Origin: Chitinophaga lutea
Lineage (GTDB): Bacteria > Bacteroidota > Bacteroidia > Chitinophagales > Chitinophagaceae
Length of the DNA stretch: 64,000 nt
Direction: 5' to 3'
Assembly: GCF_003813775.1 (NCBI RefSeq)
Contig: NZ_RPDH01000001.1
Span: forward strand, 1,798,001 to 1,862,000
A program made the translations under genes and the position numbers. Below the pieces are notes generated by a model, which saw nothing but the letters and a program-made list of their open reading frames with translations, searched no databases and was not told where the DNA came from. Shown here piece after piece: positions 24,073-40,515 of this stretch. The number at the start of each line of letters is the position of its first letter. Position 1 is the stretch's first letter.

Positions 24073-24129
24073 AAAAAAGGCGGTAAGAATACCGCCTTCA
24101 GAAATTTTAACCATATCCTATGAAAAACC
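24073..24129 (-). ncRNA. putative small RNA, copy A of a five-member family
   Basis: Minus-strand unit of about 57 nt. It begins GGTTTTTCATAGGATATGG (24129-24111), continues TTAAAA, and ends in a terminator hairpin GGCGGTA-TTCT-TACCGCC (24096-24079) followed by six T. Upstream, TAATTTTA (24142-24135) is one base off TAnnTTTG. A further block matching copies C, D and E lies at 24168-24200. No protein frame runs through it. It faces the 3' end of the DUF2911 gene. Confidence 0.7.
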
Positions 24130-24360
24130 TACGGTAAAATTAAGCCAACAACCGTTACGGGAAAACCCGTTTCTGGTGAACGCATCAAATTTCCTCGTAA
24201 GTGAGCGGATATGGAAGGTGTGATAATTTTACGTTATCAAATTCCCCGCAAAGGCCCGTAGTATTTGGTCTGCGGGCGATGCGTACTACTACGTATGTGT
24301 TATCCCGTTATGGCATACGGGCGTAAAAGCAGGCCCCTCTGGCCCAAGATTCAAATTCCG

Positions 24361-24368
24361 TACCTTTG
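24361..24368 (+). promoter_or_regulatory. TAnnTTTG box of the trans-sulfuration gene
   Basis: TACCTTTG at 24361-24368; predicted transcript start near 24375, leaving a leader of about 19 bases. No TTTG at the expected upstream spacing. Confidence 0.5.
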
Positions 24369-24393
24369 GTATTCCCATAAAATATAGCAAACC

Positions 24394-25533
24394 ATGAAGT
24401 TAGGCACCAAACTGATACATGCCGGCGTGGAACCGGACCCTTCAACAGGGGCGATTATGACACCCATCTTCCAGACGTCCACCTACGTGCAGAAAGCGCC
24501 GGGCGACCATAAGGGCTACGAATACGCCCGTACGCAGAACCCCACGCGCGACGCCCTGCAGAACGCGCTGGCTGCCATCGAGAACGGCACACATGGTATT
24601 TGCTTCGGCAGCGGCCTCGCTGCGACCGACGCCGTCATCAAGCTTCTGGAGCCGGGCGACGAAGTGATCGCCTCCAGCGACCTTTACGGCGGCACTTACC
24701 GCATTTTTACCAAAGTATTTGCCCGCTACGGCATCAAATTCCATTTCGCCGATCTCCAGGACGCCAATAACCTGCGCCGGCACGTAAATGACCGTACGAA
24801 AATGATATGGGTGGAAACGCCCACCAATCCCCTGCTGAACATCATCGATATCGCCGCCTGTGCTGCCGTGGCCCGGGAGCGGAACATCCTGCTGGCGGTG
24901 GATAATACGTTCGCTTCCCCCTACCTGCAGAACCCGCTCGACCTGGGAGCCGATATCGTGGTGCATTCCGCCACCAAATACCTCGGCGGCCACAGCGACG
25001 TGGTGCATGGCGCGGTGATCGTGAAAAACGATGCGCTGGCGCAGCAGCTCGCCTTTATACAGAACAGCTGCGGGGCGGTGCCGGGCCCTCAGGACTGCTT
25101 CCTGGTGCTCCGGGGCCTAAAAACCCTCCATGTGCGCATGCAGCGGCACTGCGAAAACGGCGAAGCGGTGGCCCATTTCCTGCGGCAGCACCCGAAAGTG
25201 GGGAAGGTTTTCTGGTGCGGTTTCGAAGACCATCCCAACCATGCCGTGGCTAAAAAACAGATGCGCGGCTTCGGGGGGATGATTTCTTTCACCCTCAAAG
25301 ACGATAGCATGGATGCCGCGCTGAAAGTGCTGAGCGGCACCAAACTCTTTTCCCTGGCCGAATCGCTGGGCGGTGTGGAATCGCTGATCGGCCATCCGGC
25401 CAGCATGACCCATGCTTCCATCCCCCGCGAGGAACGGATGAAAAACGGGCTGGTGGATTCGCTGATACGCCTCAGCGTCGGCATCGAAGACGCCGAAGAT
25501 CTGATCAACGACCTGAAAGAGGCAATTGGTTGA
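24394..25533 (+). CDS. PLP-dependent trans-sulfuration enzyme (cystathionine gamma-synthase/lyase family)
   Basis: A 379-residue Cys/Met-metabolism enzyme that handles cystathionine in methionine or cysteine synthesis. Features: [19 protein letters not shown] (phosphate-contacting Tyr-x-Arg), [11 protein letters not shown], the PLP-stacking DLYGGTYR, the Asp of [11 protein letters not shown], and the Schiff-base Lys in [15 protein letters not shown] (~residue 197). The end [21 protein letters not shown] carries the Glu that separates gamma-lyases and gamma-synthases from beta-lyases. Which of the two reactions dominates cannot be read from sequence. Own promoter; hairpin after the gene. Confidence 0.92.
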
Positions 25534-25590
25534 TAAACAGGGATTTTTAAAGTTGGCATAAACTACTTACTTTTAACGCATACACCTACG

Positions 25591-25614
25591 CCTCCCGGAA
25601 GTACCGGGAGGTTT
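25591..25614 (+). terminator. hairpin after the trans-sulfuration gene
   Basis: CCTCCCGG (25591-25598) with CCGGGAGG (25604-25611) and a short TTT tail; a weak terminator or attenuator before the TIGR02757 gene. Confidence 0.5.
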
Positions 25615-25632
25615 CCATATACCGAAGAAGCC

Positions 25633-26406
25633 ATGAAGTCCCAACAACTGAGAGAATATTTAGATGCCAAGGCAGCTTATTACAATCAGCCGGCGTTTGT
25701 AGAAGGGGATCCCATCTGCATCCCGCACCGCTACCGCCAGCTGCAGGACATTGAGATCGCCGGCTTTTTTGCCGCCATACTGGCCTGGGGCAACCGTACC
25801 ACTATTATCAACAAGTGTACGGAGCTGATGGAGCTCTTTGACGACTCGCCGTATGATTTTATCCGGCATCACCAGCCCAGGGACCGTATGCGGCTGATGG
25901 GCTTCAAGCACAGGACCTTCAGCGGCCTGGACCTGTTGTATTTCGTGGAGTTCCTGCAGCACTATTACCAGAACCTGACGTCGCTGCAGTTTGCATTCAG
26001 CGGGCACATCACACCCGCAGACGCTAACGTGGAAAAGGCGCTCATCGGCTTCCGGCATATGTTTTTTGCGATGGAGCACCCGGAGCGCACCACTAAACAC
26101 ATTTCCACGCCGGCGCGCAACTCCGCCTGCAAGCGGCTCAATATGTATCTGCGCTGGATGGTGCGGAAAGACGAAAATGGCGTGGATTTTGGATTATGGG
26201 AGTACATTTCGCCCGCCCAGCTGATATGCCCGATGGATGTGCATGTGAGCAGGGTGGCCGCCAGGCTGGGCCTGATCGAAAAAGCAGACGCCAGCTGGAA
26301 AACCGCCGTGGAGCTGACAGACAGGCTCCGCGAGCTGGACCCTGAAGATCCCGTGAAATACGATTTTGCGTTGTTCGGATTGGGGGTGATTGAAAAATAT
26401 GTGTAG
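25633..26406 (+). CDS. TIGR02757 (DUF2400) family protein
   Basis: A 257-residue cytoplasmic protein, almost entirely helical, matching the TIGR02757 family of Bacteroidota and some other phyla: DIEIAGFFAAILAWGNRTTI, then PARNSACKRLNMYLRWMVRK and CPMDVHVSRVAARLGL, a pattern that resembles helix-hairpin-helix DNA glycosylases (the 'CPMDVH' region). Role unproven, possibly nucleic-acid related. Followed 17 bases later by the DUF6263 gene, so probably co-transcribed. Confidence 0.88.
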   Translation: MKSQQLREYLDAKAAYYNQPAFVEGDPICIPHRYRQLQDIEIAGFFAAILAWGNRTTIINKCTELMELFDDSPYDFIRHHQPRDRMRLMGFKHRTFSGLDLLYFVEFLQHYYQNLTSLQFAFSGHITPADANVEKALIGFRHMFFAMEHPERTTKHISTPARNSACKRLNMYLRWMVRKDENGVDFGLWEYISPAQLICPMDVHVSRVAARLGLIEKADASWKTAVELTDRLRELDPEDPVKYDFALFGLGVIEKYV

Positions 26407-26423
26407 ATCAATTTATCAGGATA

Positions 26424-27362
26424 ATGAAGAAACTTACCGTACTGCTGGCCATGTGCTGCTACGTTTTATCGCTCTCCGCGCAGGATTATGTGGAGCTGAA
26501 TTACAAGTTTAAAACCGGTGATGCGTTTGAGTTGCAACAACAGAGCCGCAGCGAAACCTATATTACGGTAAATGATGTGATCCAGCGCACCACCCGCGAC
26601 TACAACACCAAAATGAATGTGAAGGTGGCCGAAACCGGCGCCGGCTCTTTTGTGCTGCACTGGGCCTATTCAGACATCAAATTCAACTTCAACGCCAAAA
26701 ACCAGAACATTTTCGTGGATGCGAAAGTGGCCAACGCCCAGGAGCCCCTCCAGGGCGCCCTGAAGCTGATACTGGACCAGCCTTTTACCGTGGAGATACA
26801 GTCCACCGGCATGATCAAGAACGTTACCGGCCTCGACGCGCTGATGGATAAAGCCTCCGCAGCCTTTTCCAGCCTGAAATCGGACGAACAGGCGGCTTAT
26901 AAAAAGCTGCTGAAAGACCAGTTCGGCACCGACGCTTTCCGCTCCTGGCTGGAACAGCTCCTGGTGGTATATCCCGTTCACGGCATCAAAAACGGCACCC
27001 AGTGGGAAGAAAGCGTGCCACTGCGCACCGGTCTGAAAGGCAGGATAGACCTCTACTGGAACCTGAAGCACTGGGACAGCCAGACCGCCAAGATCGACGG
27101 CCAGGGCAATATCAAAACAGACAAGGTGGAAACCTTCACCGTGGAAGAAGGCATCCAGGCCACCGCCGCCATAGAAGGCACCCAAACCACCAACTACCTG
27201 ATCAACCGCGAAAGCGGCATGCCCAGCATTTGTGTACAGAACACAGAAATGAAAGGGGAATATATTTACCTCGCCAACCGCAAAAAGCAACTGAAAAAAG
27301 ACCTGAAAGTGCCGGTAAAGATCGTAACCAACGCTTCTTACAAGATCAAGCAGGTGAAATAA
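26424..27362 (+). CDS. exported DUF6263-like protein
   Basis: A 312-residue protein with signal peptide MKKLTVLLAMCCYVLSLSA. The mature chain is beta-rich with the layout of DUF6263 proteins (VELNYKFKTGDAFELQQQSR near the start; a YPVHGIKNGTQWEESVPLRT segment in the middle; GIQATAAIEGTQTTNYLINR near the end). Function unknown, likely periplasmic or surface. Its TAA stop overlaps the ATG of the next gene (TAATG), so the two are translationally coupled. Confidence 0.78.
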   Translation: MKKLTVLLAMCCYVLSLSAQDYVELNYKFKTGDAFELQQQSRSETYITVNDVIQRTTRDYNTKMNVKVAETGAGSFVLHWAYSDIKFNFNAKNQNIFVDAKVANAQEPLQGALKLILDQPFTVEIQSTGMIKNVTGLDALMDKASAAFSSLKSDEQAAYKKLLKDQFGTDAFRSWLEQLLVVYPVHGIKNGTQWEESVPLRTGLKGRIDLYWNLKHWDSQTAKIDGQGNIKTDKVETFTVEEGIQATAAIEGTQTTNYLINRESGMPSICVQNTEMKGEYIYLANRKKQLKKDLKVPVKIVTNASYKIKQVK

Positions 27363-27697
27363 TGGAAGACCGTTATCTACAGCAAACCGGGGCCTGGCTG
27401 CAGGAAAACGCCGGCATCCGTGTACCCGCCGCCGTGAGCATGGCCGACCTTGAAAAGATACTGGCGGAGAAACTGGAGATACTGGTGGAGCGGGACTTTC
27501 AGCAGTTCGTGCTGCTGCTGTACCAGGTGGATGTATCGGAACGGAAAGTGAAAGAGATTCTTGCCGCGCAAAACTACCCGGATGTTTTTATATCCATCGC
27601 CCGGCTGATCATCAGCCGGCAGACCGAAAAAATCAAAAGCCGCGAGAAATATAAACAGCCACCGGAAAACCTCCCGGACGATGAGGAGAAATGGTGA
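27362..27697 (+). CDS. small hypothetical protein coupled to the DUF6263 gene
   Basis: 111 residues, starting at the ATG that overlaps the previous stop. Predicted all-helical and strongly acidic/basic: VSMADLEKILAEKLEILVER, DFQQFVLLLYQVDVSERKVK, IARLIISRQTEKIKSREKY, ending DDEEKW. It looks like a small cytoplasmic helical-bundle protein; I do not recognise the family with certainty. Followed by a strong bidirectional terminator that closes the TIGR02757-DUF6263 operon. Confidence 0.7.
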   Translation: MEDRYLQQTGAWLQENAGIRVPAAVSMADLEKILAEKLEILVERDFQQFVLLLYQVDVSERKVKEILAAQNYPDVFISIARLIISRQTEKIKSREKYKQPPENLPDDEEKW

Positions 27698-27746
27698 GCA
27701 GGCTGAATGTCTCCGGCACGGTAACGTGAATGAACCAGAACGGCAT

Positions 27747-27782
27747 AAAAAAAGAGGGTGTTTCGCAACACCCTCTTTTTTA
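27747..27782. terminator. bidirectional terminator
   Basis: AAAAAGAGGGTGTT pairs with AACACCCTCTTTTT around a TCGC loop, between the plus-strand operon and the convergent hydroxylase gene. Confidence 0.85.
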
Positions 27783-28442
27783 TTTATCGAACATCAGTTC
27801 TTTTACTTTCGTTTTGTCTTCTTTTTCCTTATCCAGGTCGAAGAAGGTGCCGAACACCCGGTCCCAGAACGAGGAGCTTACGCCGAAGCCCTTCTCATCG
27901 TCTTTATAATGGTGCAGGTGGTGGTTGCGCCATACCGGCTTCATGAATTTGAACGGCGGGTTCCAGGCGTGGATGGCGTAATGCATGCTGCCGTAAATGA
28001 GGTAACCCAGGATGAACCCCGGCCAGAACATAAACGTGAGCCCGCCCATAACGAGGTACATCACCGCGAATATGATGGATGAAATGATGAGGCTGGGCAC
28101 AGGCGGCATGAAGAGCCGCTGCCGGTCGCGGGGATATTCGTGGTGATTGCCGTGCAGCACGTACACGAACCGCGTCAGCCGTTTATTTTCCGTTACCAGG
28201 TGGAACAGGAAACGGTGCATCACATACTCAAAAAATGACCAGAAGAAAATGGCACCCAGGAAAACCAGCGTAATTTTCCCGACGCTGTAACCGAGGGTGG
28301 CATTGCTGTAATACAGCATATACCCGATGATGGGGAGATACATACCCCAGATTACAAGGGGATGGGTTTTGGTCAGCATTTCCAGATAACGGCTCTCAAA
28401 CAATCGCGCCTGTCCTTTATTCTTGATCTTGTCGAATTTCAT
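27780..28442 (-). CDS. fatty acid hydroxylase / sterol desaturase family protein
   Basis: A 220-residue integral membrane di-iron enzyme. Three histidine clusters are present: FFEYVMHRFLFHL, VLHGNHHEYPRDR, and VWRNHHLHHYKDD (plus HYAIH), interleaved with four hydrophobic segments (e.g. LVFLGAIFFW and IISSIIFAVMYLVMGGL). The size and the HRxxFH...HGNHHEYP pattern resemble the hydroxylase domain of fatty acid 2-hydroxylase, without the cytochrome b5 domain. Bacteroidota make 2- and 3-hydroxylated sphingolipid acyl chains, so acyl 2-hydroxylation is a fair guess. ATG 28442 is used; a TTG lies three codons upstream. Confidence 0.88.
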   Translation of the reverse strand: MKFDKIKNKGQARLFESRYLEMLTKTHPLVIWGMYLPIIGYMLYYSNATLGYSVGKITLVFLGAIFFWSFFEYVMHRFLFHLVTENKRLTRFVYVLHGNHHEYPRDRQRLFMPPVPSLIISSIIFAVMYLVMGGLTFMFWPGFILGYLIYGSMHYAIHAWNPPFKFMKPVWRNHHLHHYKDDEKGFGVSSSFWDRVFGTFFDLDKEKEDKTKVKELMFDK

Positions 28443-28539
28443 GACTCCCAAATTTTTGATTAAACCTTAATAATTCATCATTATGTAACAGGAGTAGGGA
28501 ACTATTTGTTAGGTTATTGCCATTGCTGCCTGCATAAAA

Positions 28540-30480
28540 TCACAGATGAAGGGACAACAACCGGGGTACTGTAACCAATTCATATTGTTTACCCTGCAAA
28601 TATCGTATCAATTTCTCCAATTGTAAATAAAATTTATCTATTCTTCTCGGGTCCGTGCCTATATGTACCAGCAGCATAAAGCCGTTTAACCCCGCAGGGC
28701 GCTGGTTTTCAAAGTCTGTGACGGATTTCATGATACTGTCGCTGCCCCGGTAACTTTTCCCCATTTCGGGGTAGGTATAATCAGCCGTGCTCCGGGTGCC
28801 GGGGCTGAAATTCACCAGCTGCAGCCCCAGGGCGGCGGTCCATTTTACGATGGAATCGTTGTACCATTCATACGGCGGCAGAAAATAATGCGGGGCGGCT
28901 ATGCCATGCCGCGCCATGGCCCGGTAATTCAGGGCGAGATCTTCTTCGAATTCCCGCCGGGTCACCAGCAGGCTGTCCCGTTTCACCCAGTCGCAGTACA
29001 ACAGGTGCCGGCCGGAATGGCCCGCCAGGTAATGCCCGTCGTTTTTGAGGCGCCGGATAAGGGGGGCGAAGGCGGGGGTTTCGTAAAATGTGCCGGTCAG
29101 GAAAAACGAGGCGGGCACCTTGCATTTTTTCAGCACGGCGGCAATATGCTCGCCGCCGTCGGCAAACTCGTGGCCGGTAAACACGATGGCCAGCCGCCGG
29201 CGGGTGGTGTCGCCCCGGGTGATAGCCACCGGCGGTTGCCCCAGGCCGGCCGTGGCCTCTTCAAAAATACCGAGGTCGGGCGCGTGGGGGCGTTGGCGTT
29301 GCAGCTCGTATCCGTAAAAAATATCGCCCACTTCCTTAAAAAAGGGATATCCTTCCTCCTCGTACTCATATTTATTATCGTTCAGCACCCCGTCCCGGTT
29401 CACATAAATATTGGCGCTGAGCATAAACTCCACCTTGTTTTTGATGTCGGCGAAGTAAGCCACGTCTGTCAGGAATCCGTAGCTCCAGCCTGTTTTATTG
29501 AACACGCGGATGTGCGGGGGAATTTTGCCCCGGCCGGCTTTGAAGCGGAAAAATTTCGTGTAGCTGTCGAAAAACTCGCTGGTGTCGTACTTCGGGTGGT
29601 CGCTTTCAAAAGGGAGCGCGGCCATGTACCGGTACAGGAAGCGGTAGTCGTCGGGGCTGAGGTTGAAGCGCTGCGCGGCGGGTACGGAAGCGGGAAACAG
29701 CACCGACTGCAGCATCCGTTGCAGGTCCTGCAGCGGGGCATTGTTATGCCGCGTAAAATCCATCGGTTTATTGATCAGGGCATCGTTCCGGTCGTAGTGC
29801 TGCCGGCCCACGAACAGGGGCTTGCTGAAATCGTATACCAGCGTATTGACGGCGGCGGGCTGGCGGTAAACCGTATCGGCCCCCAGCACGAAATAAACGG
29901 GGTTGGTGTGCCGGTTCTCCTCTTCGGTCATCGGCACAAAACGGCGCACTATCCGCACATCAGGGTATCCTTTCGCCAACAGTTTTTCGCGGATGGTTTG
30001 CGGGCCGATGAACTCGTAAAGGCGGTTATAGGCGTCGTTGTCGCTGACGAGGAATATCTTTTTGATGTACTGGGCTATTGACGGCAGCCCGTTCTCCGCC
30101 GAGGTATCGCGCCGTACACGCGTTTGCCCGCTGAAAGCGCTGTCTGTCAACATCGGTGTGTATTTATCGATTCCCAGGCTGTTCAGTTTCTCCAGCGCCA
30201 GGAAAGCCAGCGGCATTTTGACCATGGAAGCGGGGTTGAAATAAACCGCTTTGTCGACATGATAATAATAATGCCTGAACGCCGGCCGGTTCTGCGCGTC
30301 GCGGTTGATCTGCGTGTAGATGAGCTGCACCTGGAAAGAATCGGGGTGTGCGAGGATGTGCCGCAGCTGCGGCGAGGCGTGTTTGTTCAACAGGTCTTTC
30401 ATGAACGCATCCGTGCGGGGCTGCGCCCGGGCTGCGGCGGCCAGCAGCAGCAACAACAGCGTGAACGTGGTACGAGACAT
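28540..30480 (-). CDS. serine beta-lactamase-like domain fused to a NodB-type polysaccharide deacetylase domain
   Basis: A 646-residue exported protein (signal peptide TFTLLLLLLAAAARA). Residues ~25-360 carry all three motifs of class A beta-lactamase/penicillin-interacting enzymes: SxxK (Ser85-Met-Val-Lys88), SDN (146-148) and KTG (329-331). Residues ~425-640 resemble the carbohydrate esterase 4/NodB fold: motif 1 reads EFADG (438-442) where TFDDG is usual, motif 2 HSGRH (488-492), motif 3 FLPPYEW. Metal ligands Asp441, His488 and His492 are kept but the catalytic-base Asp is Ala440. Likely acts on peptidoglycan in the periplasm; the deacetylase half may be inactive. Confidence 0.82.
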   Translation of the reverse strand: MSRTTFTLLLLLLAAAARAQPRTDAFMKDLLNKHASPQLRHILAHPDSFQVQLIYTQINRDAQNRPAFRHYYYHVDKAVYFNPASMVKMPLAFLALEKLNSLGIDKYTPMLTDSAFSGQTRVRRDTSAENGLPSIAQYIKKIFLVSDNDAYNRLYEFIGPQTIREKLLAKGYPDVRIVRRFVPMTEEENRHTNPVYFVLGADTVYRQPAAVNTLVYDFSKPLFVGRQHYDRNDALINKPMDFTRHNNAPLQDLQRMLQSVLFPASVPAAQRFNLSPDDYRFLYRYMAALPFESDHPKYDTSEFFDSYTKFFRFKAGRGKIPPHIRVFNKTGWSYGFLTDVAYFADIKNKVEFMLSANIYVNRDGVLNDNKYEYEEEGYPFFKEVGDIFYGYELQRQRPHAPDLGIFEEATAGLGQPPVAITRGDTTRRRLAIVFTGHEFADGGEHIAAVLKKCKVPASFFLTGTFYETPAFAPLIRRLKNDGHYLAGHSGRHLLYCDWVKRDSLLVTRREFEEDLALNYRAMARHGIAAPHYFLPPYEWYNDSIVKWTAALGLQLVNFSPGTRSTADYTYPEMGKSYRGSDSIMKSVTDFENQRPAGLNGFMLLVHIGTDPRRIDKFYLQLEKLIRYLQGKQYELVTVPRLLSLHL

Positions 30481-30520
30481 GCCTTAAAGCTATAAAAATC
30501 CCTTCGTTCCCCAAAAGGGC

Positions 30521-30528
30521 TATATTTG
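30521..30528 (+). promoter_or_regulatory. TAnnTTTG box of the FAH operon
   Basis: TATATTTG at 30521-30528; predicted start near 30535, giving a 74-base leader before the FAH gene. Confidence 0.55.
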
Positions 30529-30608
30529 GGCACAAAACACCAAAACTAAACTGTGGGGCAATCGATTCGTTTGTTCCATCCGGCAATTAAAAGATCAAAA
30601 ACATTTTC

Positions 30609-31625
30609 ATGAAACTTGTTACCTATATCCGCGAAGATGTAGACCAACTGGCCATACTGGTGGACGGCCAGCTGTACAACATGCAGGAGCTGCATCCAGA
30701 GCTGCCCACCACCATGCACATGTTCCTGCAGATGTGGGAAGAAGTGATCGACCTGGCCATCCACATCGATGCACAGCTGAAGGCAGGCAAAATGCCGAAA
30801 ATGAATACCTGGGGCGTGCCGTACGAAAGCGCGCAGCTGCTGGCCCCCGTTCCGTTCCCCACCTCCTGCCGCGACGGTTATGCATTCCGCCAGCATGTGG
30901 CCACCGCGCGCCGCAACCGGAAGGTGGACATGATCCCTGAATTCGACCAGTACCCGATATTTTATTTCACCAACCACAACGCCATCCAGGGCCCCGGCGA
31001 TATTCTCTGTATGCCCGACCATTTCCGCAACCTCGATTTCGAACTGGAAGCAGCCATCGTGATCTGCAAGCGCGGGCGCAACATTCCCGCCGCGGAAGCG
31101 GACGGTTACATCGGCGGCTACATGATCATGAACGACATGAGCGCCAGGGTGCTGCAGATGGAGGAAATGAAACTCAACCTCGGCCCCGCCAAAGGGAAAG
31201 ATTTTTCCACGGTCATCGGCCCCATGCTGGTGACGCCCGACGAACTGGAACCTTACCGCATCCCCACCAAAGACGGCCATACCGGCAATCAATACAATCT
31301 CAAAATGCGCTGCTGGGTAAACGGCGTACAGGTGAGCGAAGGCAATATGGGCGATATGGACTGGACCTTCGCCGAAATCGTGGAACGCTGCGCATACGGC
31401 GCAGACCTGCTGCCCGGCGATGTGATCGGCAGCGGCACCGTAGGCACGGGCTGCTTCCTGGAACTGAACGGTACCGGCAAGCTCAACGACCCTGATTACA
31501 AAGAACAATGGCTGCAGCCCGGCGATGTGGTGGAAATGGAAATAGACGGCCTGGGGCGTTTGAAAAACACGATCGTGGCGGAAGAATCCGATTTCTCCAT
31601 CCTTGCCCAGAAAAAGAACGTATGA
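30609..31625 (+). CDS. fumarylacetoacetate hydrolase family protein
   Basis: A 338-residue metal-dependent C-C hydrolase. It has the catalytic-region His (GYAFRQHVATAR), the acidic metal ligands in FELEAAIVICKRG and YMIMNDMSARVLQMEEMKL, the GKDFSTVIGPMLVTPDEL segment, and the C-terminal GDVIGSGTVGTGCFLELNG and GDVVEMEIDGLGRLKN of the FAH fold. FAH proteins end tyrosine or homoprotocatechuate breakdown, among other routes. Its stop overlaps the start of the flavin reductase (ATGA), so the pair works as an operon; no homogentisate gene is in the window. Confidence 0.9.
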   Translation: MKLVTYIREDVDQLAILVDGQLYNMQELHPELPTTMHMFLQMWEEVIDLAIHIDAQLKAGKMPKMNTWGVPYESAQLLAPVPFPTSCRDGYAFRQHVATARRNRKVDMIPEFDQYPIFYFTNHNAIQGPGDILCMPDHFRNLDFELEAAIVICKRGRNIPAAEADGYIGGYMIMNDMSARVLQMEEMKLNLGPAKGKDFSTVIGPMLVTPDELEPYRIPTKDGHTGNQYNLKMRCWVNGVQVSEGNMGDMDWTFAEIVERCAYGADLLPGDVIGSGTVGTGCFLELNGTGKLNDPDYKEQWLQPGDVVEMEIDGLGRLKNTIVAEESDFSILAQKKNV

Positions 31626-32503: not shown

Positions 32504-32685
32504 TAATCATGGAAAAGGAGCCGTATCAAAATTGCCCGGGCAGGGGAAAGCGGCGGATGCAGGGCAGCTGCTGCTGGCGGAAAATTGATAATCATGGAAA
32601 AGGGGCCGCATCCATGCGCCAACAAACCACCCAGGCAGGGAAAGTAGCGGATACATGGCAGATGCTACTCACGGAAAACAGATGA
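32414..32685 (+). repeat. three tandem, decayed copies of the 3' end of the flavin reductase gene
   Basis: Unit 1 (32414-32508) is the coding end of the gene, from ATGGAAAAGGA to TGATAATC. Unit 2 (32509-32593) and unit 3 (32594-~32685) begin with the same ATGGAAAAGG and end in CAGGGGAAAG...GGCAG...TGATAATC or its remnant. Unit 2 has lost about 10 bases and unit 3 ends in AACAGATGA. Neither extra unit keeps the reading frame. Confidence 0.8.
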
Positions 32686-32766
32686 CGGACAGATGAGCCA
32701 TGTACCGCAAACGCAATTGCGAACAGAACATCCCGACCGACATACAACAGACCGCATTGAACATAA

Positions 32767-32802
32767 AAAGAGGTTGCCGCAATAATTTGCGGCAACCTCT
32801 TT
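32767..32802. terminator. bidirectional terminator
   Basis: AAAGAGGTTGCCGCAA pairs with TTGCGGCAACCTCTTT around a four-base loop, between the flavin reductase repeats and the convergent DUF4197 gene. Confidence 0.85.
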
Positions 32803-32821
32803 CCTTTTAAAAAATATATGA

Positions 32822-33553
32822 TCAGCTTTTGCTGCCGAACACTTTCTTCAGCAATTCGCTGGTACGCGCCGCAGGGTTCTGGCGGATGGCCAGTTCTTCT
32901 TTCGCGATCTGGTCGAACAGCGCCTGCACGGCCTTTTCCGTTACATACCCTTTCAGGTCCGGATTGATTTTATTAAACGTGGTGGGCAGGCTGTTGTATT
33001 TGGTCACGAGGCTGCCGTAGTATTTCGTGGCGCTGGTTTTGTTCAGCGCGCTGTCGATCACCGGCGAGAAGGCGGTTTTCAGCGACTCGGTGGTTTTGTT
33101 CTGGAAATAATCCGTAGCGGAACGCTGGCCGCCCCGCAGCAGGTTCAGCGCGTCGGTGATGGTCATCTGTTTGATGGCGTTCACGAATATGGGTTTGGCG
33201 AAACCCACGGCCTGCTCCGCCGCGCGGTTGATCTGCAGGATGGCTTTGTCCACTTCGCCGCCCAGGCCGATGCTGCGCAATGCCCGCTCGGCTTTTAACG
33301 CATCGGGTGGCAGCAGTACTTTATACAGTTCGTTCCCGAAAAACCCGTTCTGTTTATTGAGCAGCGAAATACCTGCGCTTACGCCTTTTTCCAGCGCCTC
33401 CTTAATCCCCAGCCCCGCTTCGTTTTCGGTCACCGATCCGGTGGTGGAGCTGCCGCCGTTTAAAATGCCCGCGGCCTTTTTCAGGATCTGCGCCTGGGAT
33501 GCAGTGTGCAGGACGAGTGCGCCTGCCAGTAATACGATTGTTCTCTTTAGCAT
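32822..33553 (-). CDS. DUF4197 domain protein, exported
   Basis: A 243-residue protein with a short signal peptide (RTIVLLAGALVLHTASQA). The mature part matches DUF4197: IKEALEKGVSAGISLLNKQN, LLPPDALKAERALRSIGLGG, ITDALNLLRGGQRSATDYFQ, and the C-terminal ARTSELLKKVFGSKS. All-helical periplasmic protein of unknown function. It follows the universal stress protein gene on the same strand with 33 bases between them, so the two may share a transcript. Confidence 0.9.
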   Translation of the reverse strand: MLKRTIVLLAGALVLHTASQAQILKKAAGILNGGSSTTGSVTENEAGLGIKEALEKGVSAGISLLNKQNGFFGNELYKVLLPPDALKAERALRSIGLGGEVDKAILQINRAAEQAVGFAKPIFVNAIKQMTITDALNLLRGGQRSATDYFQNKTTESLKTAFSPVIDSALNKTSATKYYGSLVTKYNSLPTTFNKINPDLKGYVTEKAVQALFDQIAKEELAIRQNPAARTSELLKKVFGSKS

Positions 33554-33586
33554 AGTCTGTTATTCAAGATGTAGGATGAAAGGGAT

Positions 33587-34414
33587 TTATTCATGGATGG
33601 ACAATAACGGCACATGCGTGTTGAACGCGATGCGCGAAGTATGGCTGCGCTTGAAGATGCTGTCGAACAGCCCGTGTTTTTTCGGGATGATGAGCAGCAG
33701 GTCGGCGCTCTGCTGGTCCGCAAAACCGGTGATGCCTTCCACCACGTTGGGATGGTCGATGAAATGGTATTGCGGGTTATAGTTATGCAGCATGTTATCA
33801 AGCTCCTGGTTCTCTTCGGGATGCAGGTGCTCTTTTCCTTCTTTCTGCACGTTGAGCACCAGCAGTTCGGGTTTGAATTCGTCGAGCAGGCGGTAGAGCA
33901 CGTCTTTGCGGGTAGTTTTGGCCACCTTGCGCAGGTCGCAGGCGAACACCACTTTCCTGATGGGGCGGAAGGCAGCCTCCGTAGGCACCACGATCACGGG
34001 GTAGCTGGAGTTTTTCACCACGTCCACCGTATTGGAGCCCACCAGGATCTCTTCCAGCTGGCTGCCGCCGGTGATGCCCATCACGATAATATCCGCATGC
34101 TCATCCCGGCACACCTGGTCGATATTAGCCGCCAGCAAATGATTGTCCGCCCTGAAATCCACCGTGATGCCGGCCGGCACTACAGGCGCCAGTTCCGCCT
34201 TCATATGCTGCAAACCTTCGATACTGGAGGCTTTCAGGTCTTCCATATTGACCATCGGCACGGCGGTAGGCAGGTCGGGGATCGGCACGATCAGCTCGTA
34301 GGCATGATATAATAAAATGCGCGTGGCGCCGGTTTGCTGCGCCAGGCCCAACGCATAGCGGGCCGCGTTATAGGCGGTTTCGGAAAAATCAGTTGGAACA
34401 ATGATGGTTTTCAT
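33587..34414 (-). CDS. universal stress protein with two UspA domains
   Basis: 275 residues from ATG 34414 (MKTIIVPTDFSETAYNAARYA), the standard USP start; longer in-frame starts lack support. First UspA domain ~1-150 with the ATP-binding-type loop VMGITGGSQLEEILVGSNTV; second domain ~155-275, more divergent (RKVVFACDLRKVAKTTRKDV, then LLLIIPKKHGLFDSIFKRS). Such tandem proteins are cytoplasmic stress factors. The VMGxTGG(S) loop keeps the residues for nucleotide binding in the first half only. Confidence 0.92.
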   Translation of the reverse strand: MKTIIVPTDFSETAYNAARYALGLAQQTGATRILLYHAYELIVPIPDLPTAVPMVNMEDLKASSIEGLQHMKAELAPVVPAGITVDFRADNHLLAANIDQVCRDEHADIIVMGITGGSQLEEILVGSNTVDVVKNSSYPVIVVPTEAAFRPIRKVVFACDLRKVAKTTRKDVLYRLLDEFKPELLVLNVQKEGKEHLHPEENQELDNMLHNYNPQYHFIDHPNVVEGITGFADQQSADLLLIIPKKHGLFDSIFKRSHTSRIAFNTHVPLLSIHE

Positions 34415-34544
34415 GCCGGGGAGATTTTCTATAAAGTTACACAATAACCACACCAATCGCTGATGTAAAGTCATAAATAAATTATAAAAGATAGATATAT
34501 AGAAGGCTCGCCGTACTCGTGTAGACAAATCTCCACAAATCCGT

Positions 34545-34552
34545 TATTTTTG
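34545..34552 (+). promoter_or_regulatory. TAnnTTTG box of lysS
   Basis: TATTTTTG at 34545-34552, predicted start near 34559. This excludes the ATG at 34560 as a useful start and supports 34608. Confidence 0.5.
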
Positions 34553-34607
34553 CACTCCTTTGAAGGCGGGCGGGGCTGATTCCGCACGCCGTAGATCAGC
34601 AACAAAA

Positions 34608-36146
34608 ATGAGCGTAAACACCCAACAACAACTCTCCGAACAGGAAATTATCCGCCGGGAAAAATTGCAGGAACTGCAAAACCTGGGCATCGACCCGTAC
34701 CCGGCGCCGGAATATCCCGTAAACGCATACTCTACGGACATCAAAGCCGGTTATTCCGAAGCGACGAAAGACCAGTACCAGGACGTATGCCTGGCAGGCC
34801 GCATCATGCAGACCCGCGACATGGGCAAGGCGAACTTCGCCGTACTGCAGGACAGCAAGGGCCGCATCCAGCTGTACATCAAACGCGACGATATTTGTCC
34901 GGGCGAAGACAAAAGCCTGTACGACACCGTCTGGAAGAAACTCACCGACATCGGTGACTTCATCGGGGTGAAGGGATATGTGTTCACCACCAAAACCGGT
35001 GAAACTTCCGTACACGTGCGGGAACTGACCGTGCTTGCCAAGGCGCTGCGCCCGCTGCCCGTGGTGAAGGAAAAAGAAGGTGAAACCTTCGACGCCGTGA
35101 CCGATCCCGAATTCAAATACCGCCAGCGGTATGCAGACCTCGTGATCAACCCCGACGTAAAAGAAGTGTTCATCAAACGTACCCGTCTGATGCAGACGAT
35201 GCGTGATTTTTATAACGGCATGGGTTATCTCGAAGTGGAAACTCCCATCCTGCAGGCTATTCCCGGTGGCGCGACGGCCCGCCCTTTCATCACCCATCAC
35301 AATGCGCTGGACATACCGTTGTACCTGCGCATCGCCAACGAACTGTACCTGAAAAGGCTGATCGTAGGCGGGTTTGAAGGTGTATATGAGTTCGCGAAAG
35401 ACTTCCGGAACGAAGGCATGGACCGCACCCACAACCCCGAGTTTACGGTGATGGAGATGTACGCCGCGTATAAGGATTACGACTGGATGATGCGCACCAC
35501 CGAAACCCTGCTGGAAAAAGTGGCCGTCAACGTAAACGGTAGCACGGACGTACAGGCCGGCGAGCAGGTCATCAGCTTCAAAGCCCCCTACCGCCGCGTA
35601 TCGATGTACGACGCCATTAAAGAGCACACCGGCATCGACATCACCGGTATGGACGAAGCCCAGCTCCGCGACGTGTGCAAACAGCTGCACATCCCCGTGG
35701 AAGCCAGCTCCGGCAAAGGCAAACTGATCGACGAGATTTTCGGTGAAAAATGCGAGCACCATTATGTGCAGCCCACTTTCATCATCGACTACCCCGTTGA
35801 AATGAGCCCCCTCACCAAAAAACACCGCAGCAAAGAAGGGCTGGTGGAGCGTTTTGAACTGATCGTAAACGGCAAGGAAATCGCCAACGCCTACTCCGAG
35901 CTGAACGATCCCATCGACCAGCGCGCGCGTTTTGAAGAGCAGGTACAGTTGATGGAGCGTGGGGACGATGAGGCGATGTACATCGACTACGATTTTCTCC
36001 GTGCCCTGGAATATGGCATGCCGCCTACTTCCGGTATCGGGATCGGCATCGACCGCCTTACCATGCTGATGACGAACCAGCCCTCCATTCAGGACGTGCT
36101 GTTTTTCCCGCAGATGCGCCCCGAAAAAACCGGCGGCGAAGCATAA
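34608..36146 (+). CDS. lysS: lysyl-tRNA synthetase, class II
   Basis: Charges tRNA-Lys. 512 residues from [20 protein letters not shown]. The anticodon-binding OB fold is at ~60-150 ([20 protein letters not shown]). Motif 2 is [20 protein letters not shown], and motif 3 [16 protein letters not shown] close to the C-terminus, as in class IIb. [17 protein letters not shown] provides the lysine-recognition region. Length is as for E. coli LysS (505). Followed by an intrinsic terminator. Confidence 0.97.
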
Positions 36147-36168
36147 ACGAAGCGTTTTATTCCGCATA

Positions 36169-36203
36169 CAGGCTGTTCCGTTACCCGGGGCAGCCTTTTT
36201 TTA
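36169..36203 (+). terminator. intrinsic terminator of lysS
   Basis: GGCTG (36171-36175) with CAGCC (36191-36195), extended by TCC/GGG, followed by seven T. Confidence 0.75.
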
Positions 36204-36248
36204 TTTGAACTCCTTCCCCGTTCCCGCTGTTATAAACAGAAACTGCCC

Positions 36249-36623
36249 ATGCGATTCAACATCCCTACACAGGCAGCCGTGGTGCTGTACGCCCTCATGT
36301 GGGCCGCCTTTGGCGTCAATCATCTTGTGAATGCGAAGGAAATGGTGGCCATCGTGCCCGTTCCCGGCGGCGCCGTCTGGATATATTTAACGGGCGTGGC
36401 GATGCTGCTGGCCGCAGCCGCCATTATTTTCAACATACAGGCCCGGCTGGCGGGGTACCTGCTGGCCATCATGCTGTTGGTGTTCATTTTTTCGATACAT
36501 GTGCCGCAACTGATCAAGGGCAATTTTATGGCCCCGGTGAGCATACTGAAAGACCTGGGACTGATGGCCGGGGCGATCATCGTCGCCAACATCCGGCCTA
36601 TGCACAAACAAGGCAGTAACTGA
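36249..36623 (+). CDS. DoxX-like membrane protein
   Basis: A 124-residue inner-membrane protein with four hydrophobic helices (AAVVLYALMWAAFGVNHLV, IYLTGVAMLLAAAAIIF, LAGYLLAIMLLVFIFSIHV, LKDLGLMAGAIIVANIR), the size and 'F-G-x-N-H' start of the DoxX/DoxD-like family. These are thought to be small redox-linked membrane subunits; function here unknown. Its stop codon lies inside a stable hairpin that, on the minus strand, is the terminator of small-RNA copy B. Confidence 0.8.
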   Translation: MRFNIPTQAAVVLYALMWAAFGVNHLVNAKEMVAIVPVPGGAVWIYLTGVAMLLAAAAIIFNIQARLAGYLLAIMLLVFIFSIHVPQLIKGNFMAPVSILKDLGLMAGAIIVANIRPMHKQGSN

Positions 36624-36665
36624 GTTACTGCCCTGTTTGATTTTCGACCATATCCTATGAAAACC
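36605..36665 (-). ncRNA. putative small RNA, copy B (divergent)
   Basis: Minus-strand unit beginning GGTTTTCATAGGATATGGTC (36665-36646) and ending in GGCAGTAAC-TCA-GTTACTGCC (36632-36612). The stem is longer than in the other copies and has an A-T pair where A, D and E have G-C. The T-run is weak (TTGTTTG). The upstream box TACTTTAG is one base off consensus. It overlaps the 3' end of the DoxX gene, whose TGA forms the loop. Least certain member. Confidence 0.5.
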
Positions 36666-36845
36666 ACTGCTAAAGTAGCCGGTTTTTTATTCCCGCCGTT
36701 GCACCACTTCCTGCCCTGCGGCTTTCGCCGCATAACAGGCTATTTTCCGCCTGTAACCGGTACCGCCGGTATATTTCATTGCCATAATTCATATTTGATC
36801 TTTATTTTCGTCACCTCGAATCTGCAATCAACCTGAATAAAAATT

Positions 36846-38984
36846 ATGAGAAGCATGTATAAACCGATGCCAGCCTGGCTTACCGGAATTGCGTTACTGG
36901 TAGCCATCCCAGCCATTTCACAGGAAAAAAAGGAACTCACTTTCGACCAGATATTCACCCGTCCGGTCAACATCACCGAGCCCCTCCCGGCGGTACGAGG
37001 TTGGGCGGACAAGGACCATTTTATTGAAACCCGCGCCGGTAAGGCATTGACGGTGGATGTAAAAACCGGGCAGACGGCCGACTATACCCCGCCGCCGGCT
37101 ACCGGCAGAACGGTGAGCGTCCGCGGGAACGACGTTTATGTACAGGAGCCCAATGGCGGCGCGGAGATCCGCCTCACCAGCGACAGCGCCATCGAAAAGA
37201 ACGCCACCCTGTCGCCCGACGAAAAGTACGTGGCTTTCACCCGGAACAACGACCTCTATGCCGTGGAAGTGGCCACCAAAAAGGAAATCCGGTATACCAC
37301 CGACGGTTCCGACGTAATCTATAACGGCTGGGCATCCTGGGTGTATTATGAAGAAATCCTCGGCCGGCCTTCCAAGTACCGCGCATTCTGGTGGAGCCCG
37401 GATAGCAGGAAACTGGCCTTTATGCGTTTCGACGATTCCAAAGTGCCCGTATTTCCCATTTACAGCGAAGTGGGCCAGCATGGTTTCCTCGAAAACACCC
37501 GCTACCCCAAAGCCGGCGATACCAACCCCGAAGTGAAACTGGCCATTGTGCCCGTTACCGGCGGCAACATCACCTGGGCGGATTTCAATTCCAAAGACGA
37601 CCAGTATTTCGGTCAGCCCTTCTGGACGCCCGACGGCAGCGCTTTATGGGCCCAGTGGATGCCCCGTGAGCAGAACAACCTGGTCATCTACGCCATCGAT
37701 GCGCAGACAGGCGCCAAGAAGCCCATTTACAACGAAACGCAGAAAACCTGGATTGACTGGTTCACCGATATCTATTTCCTCGATAATAATAAAGGGTTCA
37801 TCATTAAAAGCGATAAATCCGGCTGGGACCACCTGTACCTGCATAATATGGACGGCAGCCTGAAAAAGCAGCTGACCACAGGCAACTGGCGTGTAAAGGC
37901 CGTACTCGAGCTGAACCAGCAGAAGCAGACGGTGTATTTCACCGCCCGCAAGGAAGCCAGCACCCGGTACGACCTTTATAAAATCGGCGTAAACGGCGGC
38001 CAGCCGCAGCGCCTCACTTTCGGCGAGTTCTCCCACGACGTGCGCCTGGCACCCGGCGGCGATCATTTCATCACCACCTACAGCAACCTCACCACCCCGC
38101 CGCGCATGGCGCTGGTGAACGAAAAAGGCAAGGTGGTGCGCGAACTGGGCAATGCCCGCGGCGCCGCGTTCGATACCTATAAAATGGCCCCCACGGAGCT
38201 GAAAACATATAAAACCCGCGACGGACTGGAGCTGCCCATCACCATCATGTGGCCGCTGAACATGGAGCCCGGGAAAAAATACCCCGTGCTGATCAGCATT
38301 TACGGCGGGCCCGATGCCGGCACCGTGTACGATGTATGGAAACCCTCCACGCTCATCTCCCAATGGTACGCCAAGGAAGGGCTCATCCAGGTGGCGATCG
38401 ACAATCGCGCCGCGGGGCACCTCGGCAAGGTAGGGATGAATTACATCCACCGCCAGCTGGGCAAATACGAGATCGAGGATTATATGGACGCCACCCGCTG
38501 GCTCACCAGCCTCCCCGGCGTGGACGCGGCCAAAGTGGGCATGACCGGCGGCAGCTTCGGCGGGTATATGACCTGCATGGCGCTGACCTACGGAGCCGAT
38601 GTGTTCTCCTACGGGATGGCCAACTTCGCCGTAACCGACTGGGCGCTGTACGACAGCCATTATACCGAAAGATTCATGGACACGCCGAAAGACAACCCCG
38701 AAGGATATAAAGTCACCTCCGTGCTCACCCATGCCGCCAAATACAAGGGACTGCTCCGCATCGTTCACGGCACCATGGACGACAACGTGCACCTGCAGAA
38801 CTCCATCCAGCTGGTCAACAAGTTCGAGGACCTGGGCAAACATTTCGAGCTGATGCTCTATCCCGGCGAACGCCATGGATGGGGCGGGGCCAAAGGCGCC
38901 CATCTCCGGAACGAAACCTACCGGTTCATATACGCCAACCTCTTGGGCAAACCCCTTCCGGCCGCTTTCAAAGGCTCCAACTAG
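36846..38984 (+). CDS. S9 family peptidase, dipeptidyl peptidase IV type
   Basis: A 712-residue exported prolyl dipeptidase (signal region AWLTGIALLVAIPAISQ). Residues ~60-440 form the eight-bladed propeller of the DPPIV N-terminal domain, including the WVYYEEILGR Glu-Glu motif that anchors the substrate amino end. The catalytic domain has the nucleophile in GGSFGGYM (Ser ~569; GWSYGG is the usual form), Asp in GTMDDNVH (~645) and His in GERHGWGG (~678). It releases X-Pro dipeptides in the periplasm. Directly followed by a long inverted repeat. Confidence 0.95.
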   Translation: MRSMYKPMPAWLTGIALLVAIPAISQEKKELTFDQIFTRPVNITEPLPAVRGWADKDHFIETRAGKALTVDVKTGQTADYTPPPATGRTVSVRGNDVYVQEPNGGAEIRLTSDSAIEKNATLSPDEKYVAFTRNNDLYAVEVATKKEIRYTTDGSDVIYNGWASWVYYEEILGRPSKYRAFWWSPDSRKLAFMRFDDSKVPVFPIYSEVGQHGFLENTRYPKAGDTNPEVKLAIVPVTGGNITWADFNSKDDQYFGQPFWTPDGSALWAQWMPREQNNLVIYAIDAQTGAKKPIYNETQKTWIDWFTDIYFLDNNKGFIIKSDKSGWDHLYLHNMDGSLKKQLTTGNWRVKAVLELNQQKQTVYFTARKEASTRYDLYKIGVNGGQPQRLTFGEFSHDVRLAPGGDHFITTYSNLTTPPRMALVNEKGKVVRELGNARGAAFDTYKMAPTELKTYKTRDGLELPITIMWPLNMEPGKKYPVLISIYGGPDAGTVYDVWKPSTLISQWYAKEGLIQVAIDNRAAGHLGKVGMNYIHRQLGKYEIEDYMDATRWLTSLPGVDAAKVGMTGGSFGGYMTCMALTYGADVFSYGMANFAVTDWALYDSHYTERFMDTPKDNPEGYKVTSVLTHAAKYKGLLRIVHGTMDDNVHLQNSIQLVNKFEDLGKHFELMLYPGERHGWGGAKGAHLRNETYRFIYANLLGKPLPAAFKGSN

Positions 38985-38989
38985 GCCGC

Positions 38990-39095
38990 GAACGAAGGAT
39001 GAACGAACCTTCCCTGGGGGATCAACGAAGGATCACCGAAAAGTTGATCCTTCGTTGAAGGTTCGTTCGTCCTTCGTTGAAGGTTCGTTGAACAC
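38990..39095. repeat. long imperfect hairpin made of short AACGAAGGAT units
   Basis: Inner arms TCAACGAAGGATCA and TGATCCTTCGTTGA are perfectly complementary over 14 bp around loop CCGAAAAGT. Outer arms (about 38990-39012 and 39057-39079) match over about 23 bases with one or two mismatches. Further GAAGGTTCGTT units extend the right side. It starts six bases after the DPP IV stop and could end or stabilise that transcript. Confidence 0.75.
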
Positions 39096-39247
39096 CGTGC
39101 AAATGCCCGCCTGGCACAGGCCGTTTTTCTGATTGTTTGTCTGGTGGCGGGTTTGAATACGTCGGTTTCCCTCTTTTTCCGGAAACAGGGGAGCATTCCT
39201 TTAAAAAAGACACTAAAAGCCATAACGGTGGGAATTTCCACCAAAAC

Positions 39248-39280
39248 AAAAGGTCATTCCGCGATGGAATGACCTTTTTT
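39248..39280. terminator. bidirectional terminator in the 38985-40052 gene-poor stretch
   Basis: AAAAGGTCATTCC (39248-39260) with GGAATGACCTTTT (39266-39278), T-runs on both strands. The 1.07-kb stretch 38985-40052 holds the hairpin repeat, this terminator and small-RNA copies C and D; I see no credible protein gene in it. Confidence 0.75.
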
Positions 39281-39294
39281 AATGACTTAGGGGC

Positions 39295-39357
39295 AAAAAA
39301 ACAGGGCTGCAAGAATACAGCCCCGAAAAATTTTAACCATATCTTTATTGAAAAACC
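39295..39357 (-). ncRNA. putative small RNA, copy C
   Basis: Minus-strand unit beginning GGTTTTTCAATAAAGATATG (39357-39338), then GTTAAAA, and ending in GGGCTG-TATTCTTG-CAGCCC with a run of seven T. Compared with copies A, D and E, one G-C pair of the stem is replaced by T-A on both sides while the TATTCTT loop side is kept. The box GAAATTTG upstream is one base off TAnnTTTG. Confidence 0.65.
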
Positions 39358-39861
39358 TAGTACAAATTTCAATAATTTAGAAGTAACCCTAATCTCCGAA
39401 TTTGTGAACGCTATATTTTTTCTGGTTAACGTAGCGAAAAGCACTTTAAACGATGACGCAAACAACCCGTTAACGAGCGAAAAACACCTTCAAGATAATT
39501 TTAAGACCATCTTTTACCGGCTCCTTCCGGCACCTCCGGCCGGGTGATCGCCGTGAACGTATCCCGGATGCTGTTAACGCGAACAACTGCAGGCTTTGTT
39601 ATCCGTCCACCCATGCACCTGATCTTTTTCAGGCGCACAAGGGGAAGTGACGGCAATACCTCCCGACTGGCGGAATACACCCGCAAACGGGCGCTCATGA
39701 ATCGAAAAAGCACGTCACGGCCTTGCCAATCCGGCTCCGGGCGTATTCTTCTCCGGCAGGAAACCGGTCCCCGGGAAATATATAACAAAAGGAAATATGA
39801 TAATTGCTGATATACGTGCTAATACGGCGGCGAGGCGGGGTTATGGGTGGGTCAGGAAATG

Positions 39862-39920
39862 AAAAAAGGCGGTAAGAATACCGCCTTTGTAATAATTTTA
39901 ACCATATCCTATGAAAAACC
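39862..39920 (-). ncRNA. putative small RNA, copy D
   Basis: Minus-strand unit beginning GGTTTTTCATAGGATATGG (39920-39902), then TTAAAA, ending in hairpin GGCGGTA-TTCT-TACCGCC (39885-39868) and six T. A perfect TATCTTTG box at 39933-39926 lies five bases before the predicted start. The upstream conserved block is at 39959-39990. No gene follows on the same strand for more than 20 kb of sense direction nearby, so it is not a leader. Confidence 0.72.
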
Positions 39921-40052
39921 TATACCAAAGATAAGGTGCTTCTTCTGCCGCGCAAGTCGATTTCCGTGAACGCCATAAAATTCCTCGTGAAGCATCGAAA
40001 TCACCTATTTTGCAGTCACATAGAAAATATATTTAAATTATGTTTTTTATCA

Positions 40053-40391
40053 CTACGCAATCCTGTGGCCATTTTTGACGGCTCTTTCCGGCTGCAGCAG
40101 CACAATTTCCTTCTCATCGCCCACAACGCCCAGCACCAGGCATTCCGAGAAAAAATTGGCGATTTGTTTGACCGGGAAGTTGATGACCGCCACTACCTGT
40201 TTCCCTATCAGCTCTTCCGGCTGATACAGCTTTGTGATCTGGGCGGACGAGCGTTTGATGCCGATTTCCGGCCCGAAATCGACCTCCAGCTGGTAGGCAG
40301 GGTTCCGCGCTTTTTCAAACACTTTGGCAGCCATAATGGTGCCGGCATGAATGTGTACCTTCTCAAAATCATTCCATGTAATGGTTTCCAT
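40053..40391 (-). CDS. csaA: CsaA-like tRNA-binding protein
   Basis: 112 residues from METITWNDFEKVHIHAGTIM, the usual start of this family. It is a stand-alone tRNA-binding (EMAP/Trbp111) OB fold: VHIHAGTI, AYQLEVDFGPEIGIKRSSAQ, KQVVAVINFPVKQIANFFSE and CLVLGVV. Dimers bind tRNA or act as export chaperones in Bacillus. A longer open frame runs upstream through small-RNA copy E but has no similarity before METI. The terminator of copy E lies 72 bases upstream of this start. Confidence 0.9.
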   Translation of the reverse strand: METITWNDFEKVHIHAGTIMAAKVFEKARNPAYQLEVDFGPEIGIKRSSAQITKLYQPEELIGKQVVAVINFPVKQIANFFSECLVLGVVGDEKEIVLLQPERAVKNGHRIA

Positions 40392-40453
40392 GCTATAAAT
40401 ATTTAATAGAGGGAAATTAAGGCGTTTGGGGGAAAAAGAGGAAGCGGGAGGGC

Positions 40454-40515
40454 AAAAAAACAGGGCGGTAAGAATACCGCCCTCCAATATTTTTAACCAT
40501 ATCCTATGAAAAACC
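40454..40515 (-). ncRNA. putative small RNA, copy E
   Basis: Minus-strand unit beginning GGTTTTTCATAGGATATGG (40515-40497), then TTAAAAA, ending in an 8-bp hairpin GGGCGGTA-TTCT-TACCGCCC (40482-40463) and TGTTTTTTT. A perfect TATCTTTG box at 40527-40520 lies four bases before the predicted start. The upstream block is at 40551-40592. It is the only copy placed directly before a same-strand gene (csaA). Confidence 0.72.

Follow-up and report, generated by a model that had tools for sequence, protein, structure and literature searches.

A multicopy family of predicted ~60-nt small RNA genes in Chitinophaga with likeness to Bacteroides FopS

Trans-acting small RNAs (sRNAs) are, to our knowledge, hardly known in Bacteroidota outside Bacteroides. 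Here we analyse five repeated intergenic units, A to E, that lie on the minus strand of a 64,000-nucleotide stretch of the Chitinophaga lutea genome (NCBI RefSeq assembly GCF_003813775.1, contig NZ_RPDH01000001.1, positions 1,798,001 to 1,862,000; hereafter the window). From sequence comparison, the units are best read as independently transcribed, co-regulated sRNAs of about 60 nt, which places them among predicted rather than mapped transcripts.

Results

Five units in the window share one layout

An earlier model reading of the letters (the sequence-only reading) had proposed five intergenic minus-strand units, and all were found where it had placed them (Table 1). They have in common the 5′ segment GGTTTTTCATAGGATATGG, which, as that reading had noted, is changed in B and C. 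At three or fewer mismatches this 19-mer occurs four times in the window, against 0.01 occurrences expected by chance; unit C, in which CATAGG is replaced by CAATAAAG, lies beyond this limit and is the fifth copy. Each unit continues through a TTAAAA-like block and a linker of variable sequence to a G+C hairpin and a T-run. These ends are present as described, except that the T-run of B is one T shorter. The fourth stem pair does change with pairing kept: A, D and E have G-C, C has T-A and B has A-T there. Perfect TATCTTTG boxes stand five bases before D and four bases before E, and a single base is off in the box of A, TAATTTTA, in that of B, TACTTTAG, and in that of C, GAAATTTG. The hairpin of B overlaps the stop codon of a plus-strand DoxX-like open reading frame (36249-36623; DoxX below the Pfam cut-off).

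The units belong to a family that is multicopy in all congeners searched

Covariance models built from the copies were searched against the genome and its relatives, as the sequence-only reading had suggested, and a multicopy family was found. Model R1 was built from seven copies and R2 from 90 matches, and sequences of the Bacteroides sRNA family FopS were excluded from the building of R3. In the C. lutea genome R1 detects ten copies, the weakest with an E value of 8.3e-5 and the next match at 0.75; beyond units A to E these comprise four copies in tandem at C3:489891-490531 and one at C1:2585576-2585632. All 60 genomes drawn from the same genus contain R1 matches at E ≤ 0.01, with 5-19 matches each. 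The exact 25-mer, among 80 listed of 118 stretches (named genomes), belongs to Chitinophaga in 76 cases, to a Flavihumibacter metagenome-assembled genome in two and to [Flexibacter] sp. in two.

Beyond the genus, R2 matched 73 of 248 genomes in a draw from the order: 50 of the 58 same-family genomes of other genera (at E ≤ 0.01), two genomes of the same genus and 21 of other families. In the best same-family matches the segment is often GGTTTTTCATAGGATATTGGATTTTAAA, ahead of varied hairpins or terminators. R3 matched 34 of 395 genomes drawn from the phylum, namely this genome, 12 of 13 from the same family and 21 elsewhere, the last weakly (E value 7.6e-4 or weaker). Seventeen of these 21 outside sites were inspected: three carry TTTTTCAT (L263, L268, L272), and the other 14, which look like plain terminators or partial matches, were set aside.

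Tandem arrays occur in the genus with a period of about 186-324 nt. The array at C3:489891-490531 (L323:7653-8293) consists of four whole promoter-plus-sRNA units and lies upstream of a Crp-type gene, a LacI-type gene (both assigned by eye) and a SusC gene. A sequence at L016:1501-1590 (+; C3:310652), TTTTCATAGGATATATGG with a G+C hairpin and T-run about 60 nt on, may be a divergent extra copy missed by R1. Two congeners carry the unit TTTTTCATAACGTGGAATTACAGGTTAAACG followed by a terminator (L024:1501-1570, minus strand; L025:1501-1570, plus strand), possibly a relative derived from a 3′ untranslated region, like FopS-14.

The terminator hairpin covaries

In hairpin alignments that were fitted to the model, a procedure that favours the structure, 97.0% of cells are paired within the genus and 96.8% in the wider set, with two-sided changes in 7 and 10 of the 10 pairs, respectively; slid controls pair in at most 57.6%. 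The covariation score was reached by 0 of 500 shuffles in either alignment.

Nearly all copies of the genus hold an ATG inside the conserved block (GGATATGG), from which a leader peptide or small protein might be read. The 48 distinct sequences give 43 different peptides, several with stops, which makes a protein unlikely, and in 47 of the 48 (those readable) ATATGG and the hairpin stand between 11 and 16 nt apart. A coding function was rejected on these grounds as barely credible.

A promoter box and a 21-bp-period repeat precede most copies

To describe the upstream regions, 246 distinct copies with standard or C-type segments (the text pattern does not pick up B-type or divergent ones) were clustered over their upstream 70 nt at 75%, leaving 101 upstreams, a few perhaps from other genera. 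Of these 101, 74 have a TAnnTTTG box whose first base is at -13 or -12, against a shuffled mean of 1.9, and eight more have TAnnTTT only. By these counts a canonical Bacteroidota promoter, one of the criteria for FopS, lies directly upstream.

Farther from the units stands a direct repeat of CGTTnAC. At one or no mismatch its proximal half is present in 88 of the 101 upstreams, its distal half in 81 and both in 70, whereas control windows average 8.3. Across 1.26 Mb including the window, 13 pairs of period 21 occur with no more than one mismatch over the whole pair, a limit that the pairs of A and D do not reach: six are upstream of sRNA copies, and the other seven lie away from copies and have no TAnnTTTG box. 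Periods of 18 and 24 give 20 and 10 pairs, also without the box.

Canonical LytTR sites consist of two 9-bp direct repeats 10-13 bp apart (PMC11347149). The CGTTnAC halves are spaced by 21 in 68 of the 70 pairs, in agreement with the spacing of this operator type, and a LytTR-type response regulator fits as the putative activator. A literature search on LytTR in Bacteroidetes found no paper on that pairing. Each copy would be equipped with a promoter of Bacteroidota type and an intrinsic terminator of its own, and the repeat of most standard genus copies is probably bound by one activator.

Table 1. Positions of the units, their upstream elements and the syntenic marker gene in the window
Feature	Position	Strand	Remark
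Unit A, predicted sRNA (5′ segment 24111-24129, terminator hairpin, T-run)	24072..24129	-	78.7 bits to model R1
-7 box of A, TAATTTTA (one off TAnnTTTG)	24135..24142	-	
Proximal CGTTCAC repeat upstream of A	24176..24182	-	distal half 24197-24203, two mismatches
Unit B, divergent predicted sRNA	36605..36665	-	43.2 bits to R1
-7 box of B, TACTTTAG (one off)	36670..36677	-	read from sequence
Unit C, predicted sRNA, CAATAAAG variant	39295..39357	-	
-7 box of C, GAAATTTG (one off)	39363..39370	-	read from sequence
Three CGTTnAC-like repeats upstream of C, 21-bp period	39404-39410, 39425-39431, 39446-39452 (span 39404..39452)	-	
Unit D, predicted sRNA	39860..39920	-	82.8 bits to R1
-7 box of D, TATCTTTG	39926..39933	-	
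CGTTCAC and GCTTCAC (two mismatches, distal) repeats upstream of D, 21-bp period	39966..39993	-	
tRNA_bind (CsaA-like) gene between E and D, marker of the syntenic block	40053..40391	-	
Unit E, predicted sRNA, top-scoring of the five	40454..40515	-	90.7 bits to R1
-7 box of E, TATCTTTG	40520..40527	-	
CTTTTAC (one mismatch) and CGTTTAC repeats upstream of E, 21-bp period	40560..40587	-	

The block around units E, D and C is syntenic

Units E, D and C, with a tRNA_bind gene between E and D and a DPPIV gene next to the block, are found together repeatedly across the genus. In 17 loci tested for synteny, a selection from those fetched, the tRNA_bind gene was present in 16 (15 genomes) at 67-88% identity, with the 5′ segment unchanged, and within the fetched stretch a DPPIV match was found in 13 loci and an aldo/keto reductase match in 11. 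Eight other genomes of the 60-genome draw have loci with exactly the sequence of unit C. At the position of E, locus L062 has four copies in a row with a spacing of 212-214 nt. Directly past the DPPIV gene of the window, positions 38985-39110 hold a large inverted repeat around CCTTCGTTGATCC / GAACCTTCAACGAAGG.

A Chitinophagaceae-type copy (63.3 bits to R3) lies between phage-like genes on a viral contig of 236 kb (L541:5815-5872, plus strand); for FopS a phage copy has been reported as well (PMC11697453).

Multiple copies, tandem arrays and this one viral occurrence would be expected of a mobile repeat, such as a miniature inverted-repeat transposable element (MITE) or a repetitive extragenic palindrome (REP)-like element, or of a dispersed terminator with no regulatory role. 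Against such an origin, the E-D-C block keeps its place while the neighbouring gene diverges and the 5′ segment stays constant, C is conserved as a specific variant, the hairpins covary, promoter and repeat stand at fixed distance, and phage and plasmid records gave no match at E ≤ 0.01. Since the block is syntenic in the tested loci, we regard a mobile repeat as very improbable; identical mobile copies lacking covariation in other genomes, which the sequence-only reading had named as grounds for abandoning the family, are contradicted by the synteny and the covariation.

The 5′ segment is a candidate seed for start codons

Part of the suggestion that the units are independent transcripts and possibly paralogous regulators is well supported, by the boxes and the upstream direct repeat, by a 5′ segment that hardly varies, by terminators that covary, and by synteny and conservation in multiple copies: the units would be independent, paralogous sRNA genes, with transcription predicted. 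We consider it rather probable that these ~60-nt multicopy sRNAs act in trans in the manner of Bacteroides FopS.

The near-invariant 5′ segment consists of the candidate seed GGUUUUUCAUAGGAUAU. Its reverse complement, AUAUCCUAUGAAAAA, reads as a start codon with Lys codons after it. By this complementarity the seed should pair with AUAUCCUAUGAAAAA-type (AUGAAAA) starts and block translation initiation there. Exact copies of TATCCTATGAAAANND number 135 in the 60 genomes; 63 are followed by CC, the form that a B-type copy would give (nine fetched), and 72 are not (71 fetched), at least six of the latter resembling sRNA copies (L409, L415, L438, L442, L444, L476). For two permuted control sequences the totals were 40 and 24, of which 38 and 23 were non-CC. 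Sites that are start-like and followed by a hydrophobic N-terminus make up 38 of the 80 fetched and 37 of the 71 that are non-CC; in the controls they are 13 of 40 and 8 of 20 (20 of 24 fetched for the second). Exact sites at secretory starts are about threefold commoner than control sites across the 60 genomes; orthologues are counted more than once in target and control sets alike, and control sites include conserved orthologues too. As a target signal, this genus-wide excess at hydrophobic-N-terminus starts is suggestive only.

Individual candidates include a 191-aa protein with a signal-like N-terminus (L009, C1:443538), whose start at CCTTATCCTATGAAAAA is matched at 15 of 16 positions with a duplex of -24.1 kcal/mol, where the strongest among 2696 sampled ATGs reaches -24.3, and an 83-aa protein that starts at TTTATCCTATGAAAACC, a site kept in five genomes. 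The own-genome candidates L009, L012 and L015 matched no Pfam or NCBIfam family.

By RNA folding, units A, B and D are predicted to form a stem at the 5′ end, which in A and D takes the form CAUA-GGA-UAUG. With GGA displayed in its loop, such a hairpin could make the 5′ segment mainly a protein-binding site, so that the sRNAs, though real, would serve as decoys for an RNA-binding protein and not as antisense seeds; near-invariance of the segment across the whole family would suit this, as would the absence of target enrichment in the own-genome sample and a share of sites at starts that equals the controls. Yet the stem is lost in other members (GGATAAGG in L287 and L288, GGATAGTAAC in L093) and in C and E the minimum-energy fold is a different one; FopS has TTTTTCAT without this stem, and its 5′ segment pairs with mRNA (PMC11697453). 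We judge the decoy function unlikely, and pairing at start codons is retained as the preferred role of the segment.

FopS aligns in register with three units below its cut-off

In B. thetaiotaomicron, FopS (RF04319) comprises 14 copies in size clusters of about 65 and 70 nt, each described with a canonical promoter and a terminator; its 5′ seed pairs at the start codons of SusC mRNAs, and RbpB antagonises it (PMC11697453). The C. lutea genome encodes two RRM_1 proteins (L108:1495-1815 and L109), of which L108 passes NCBIfam NF058537 (Rbp_regulator).

The sequence-only reading knew of no family of this kind. This holds in so far as no Rfam family matched the 64 kb at gathering score, but RF04319 (cut-off 56) aligns in register and over the whole model with E (29.3 bits), A (26.3) and D (25.1), and the new-family model weakly recovers copies of FopS, a published Bacteroides multicopy family. 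Among the 25 weak Rfam matches, BTnc060 (31.6 bits at 27748-27870), L20_leader and several more were taken as terminators or A/T-rich chance. When 30 RF04319 loci were scored with R3 at E ≤ 1, 28 matches resulted. Two of them lie elsewhere in L288, and 26 coincide with the RF04319 coordinates, in 23 of the 26 loci above the cut-off and in three of the four below it; the FopS copies are paralogues and hence non-independent. Both R3 and RF04319 match L287 (G129 C18:28837) and L288, which serve as bridging sequences. None of 40 relatives had an RF04319 match above cut-off. The best among them, a unit with GTTTTCATAGTTTTAAATTTTAAGGTTAA in another family of the order (G039, L018:1501-1569, plus strand), scored 44.1 bits, below the cut-off. 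A further sequence, AGTGTTTTTCATAGGATATGGTTTATAGCGCC, lies on the reverse strand in five congeners (L409, L415, L442, L444 and L476, around position 400), perhaps as another FopS-like subtype; its copy at G006:C110 is also a weak RF04319 match.

The likeness could instead reflect convergence on the same start-codon complement (UUUUUCAU), with sRNA function kept. Cross-scores are low, each over-cut-off FopS copy matching R3 weakly (E values 0.023-0.99; the best, at 21.7 bits, has E 0.023 in 90 kb); what the two share is limited to short parts, one of them a terminator; and the DapZ model scores C, D and E about as well. Register, length, promoter distance and a second shared block, GGTTAA, nevertheless agree, and intermediates exist in Chitinophagaceae (L287, L288) and in another family of the order (L018). 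Convergence thus appears doubtful to us. The family probably acts like FopS and is probably related to it, yet fails formal membership. Literature searches on Chitinophaga sRNAs, covariance models and FopS/GibS yielded no description of the family, most subscription journals being outside reach.

Discussion

Several results weigh against FopS-like sRNA genes. For the link to FopS, the cut-off of RF04319 is not attained (29.3 of 56 bits at best in the window), B and C are not among its matches there, and the DapZ model, which looks unrelated, is slightly better for C (27.7 bits) and D (26.0); moreover, RF04319 at E ≤ 1 also matches the B. subtilis and M. jannaschii controls, so that weak matches alone mean little. 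As to targets, none of 30 examined SusC starts, chosen by our own rule from 56 listed, has the seed complement CCTATGAAAA, and SusC was dropped as a target; CCATATCCT, the upstream half, shows no enrichment ahead of ATGs in 1.26 Mb (1259 permutations); and the start-like share of exact sites (48/80) is no higher than in the controls (25/40 and 13/20). Duplex energies only modestly beat shuffles: as strong a value was reached by 0 of 30 shuffles at the 1st percentile, by two at each of the 0.1 and 5th percentiles and by three at the median. Among the structural features, 19 of 500 shuffles of the wider alignment also give 10 two-sided pairs, 19 of 101 upstreams have no TAnnTTT box, and the CGTTnAC repeat was not found upstream of B or of the tenth copy.

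A wider scheme, tentative and in our estimate somewhat doubtful, would make FopS, GibS and the Chitinophaga family branches of an ancient Bacteroidota sRNA class whose 5′ end is complementary to the AUGAAAA start. In Chitinophaga, one dedicated two-component-type activator would switch most copies on together, so that selected lipoproteins, secreted proteins and small membrane proteins would be translated less. Apart from this scheme, a family that spans Chitinophagaceae, has a 5′ segment that stays fixed and an upstream control element of its own, and is distantly linked to FopS would show that start-codon-targeting multicopy sRNAs are not confined to gut Bacteroides; it also offers precise, testable promoter, seed and target sites.

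Among known sRNAs, DapZ (RF02551), which we take to be an enterobacterial family, matches C, D and E below threshold at 27.7, 26.0 and 24.5 bits, outscoring FopS for C and D. It differs in that these values are at most half its cut-off of 56 and in that its alignment to E covers an A/T-rich stretch and the terminator. GibS of B. thetaiotaomicron shares with FopS a 5′ seed (also termed R1) and pairs at start codons, but is 145 nt long with two seeds and a promoter of PM2 type (PMC7366714 and PMC11697453). FopS itself has GGTATTAGATTTAAGG where the Chitinophaga segment reads TAGGATATGG or TAGGATATTGG; unlike FopS, the Chitinophaga units have examined SusC starts without seed complement and stand in tandem arrays. 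They also carry an upstream 21-bp direct repeat, for which FopS upstreams were not compared. Of the FopS plan, TTTTTCAT, GGTTAA and the terminator hairpin are present as sequence blocks in this order, the alignment covering RF04319 positions 1-71, but the plan includes a single-stranded 5′ seed region, and for A, B and D folding predicts a stem there. Both families are multicopy (10 copies here and 5-19 in 60 of 60 congeners, against 14 in B. thetaiotaomicron) with a canonical promoter upstream.

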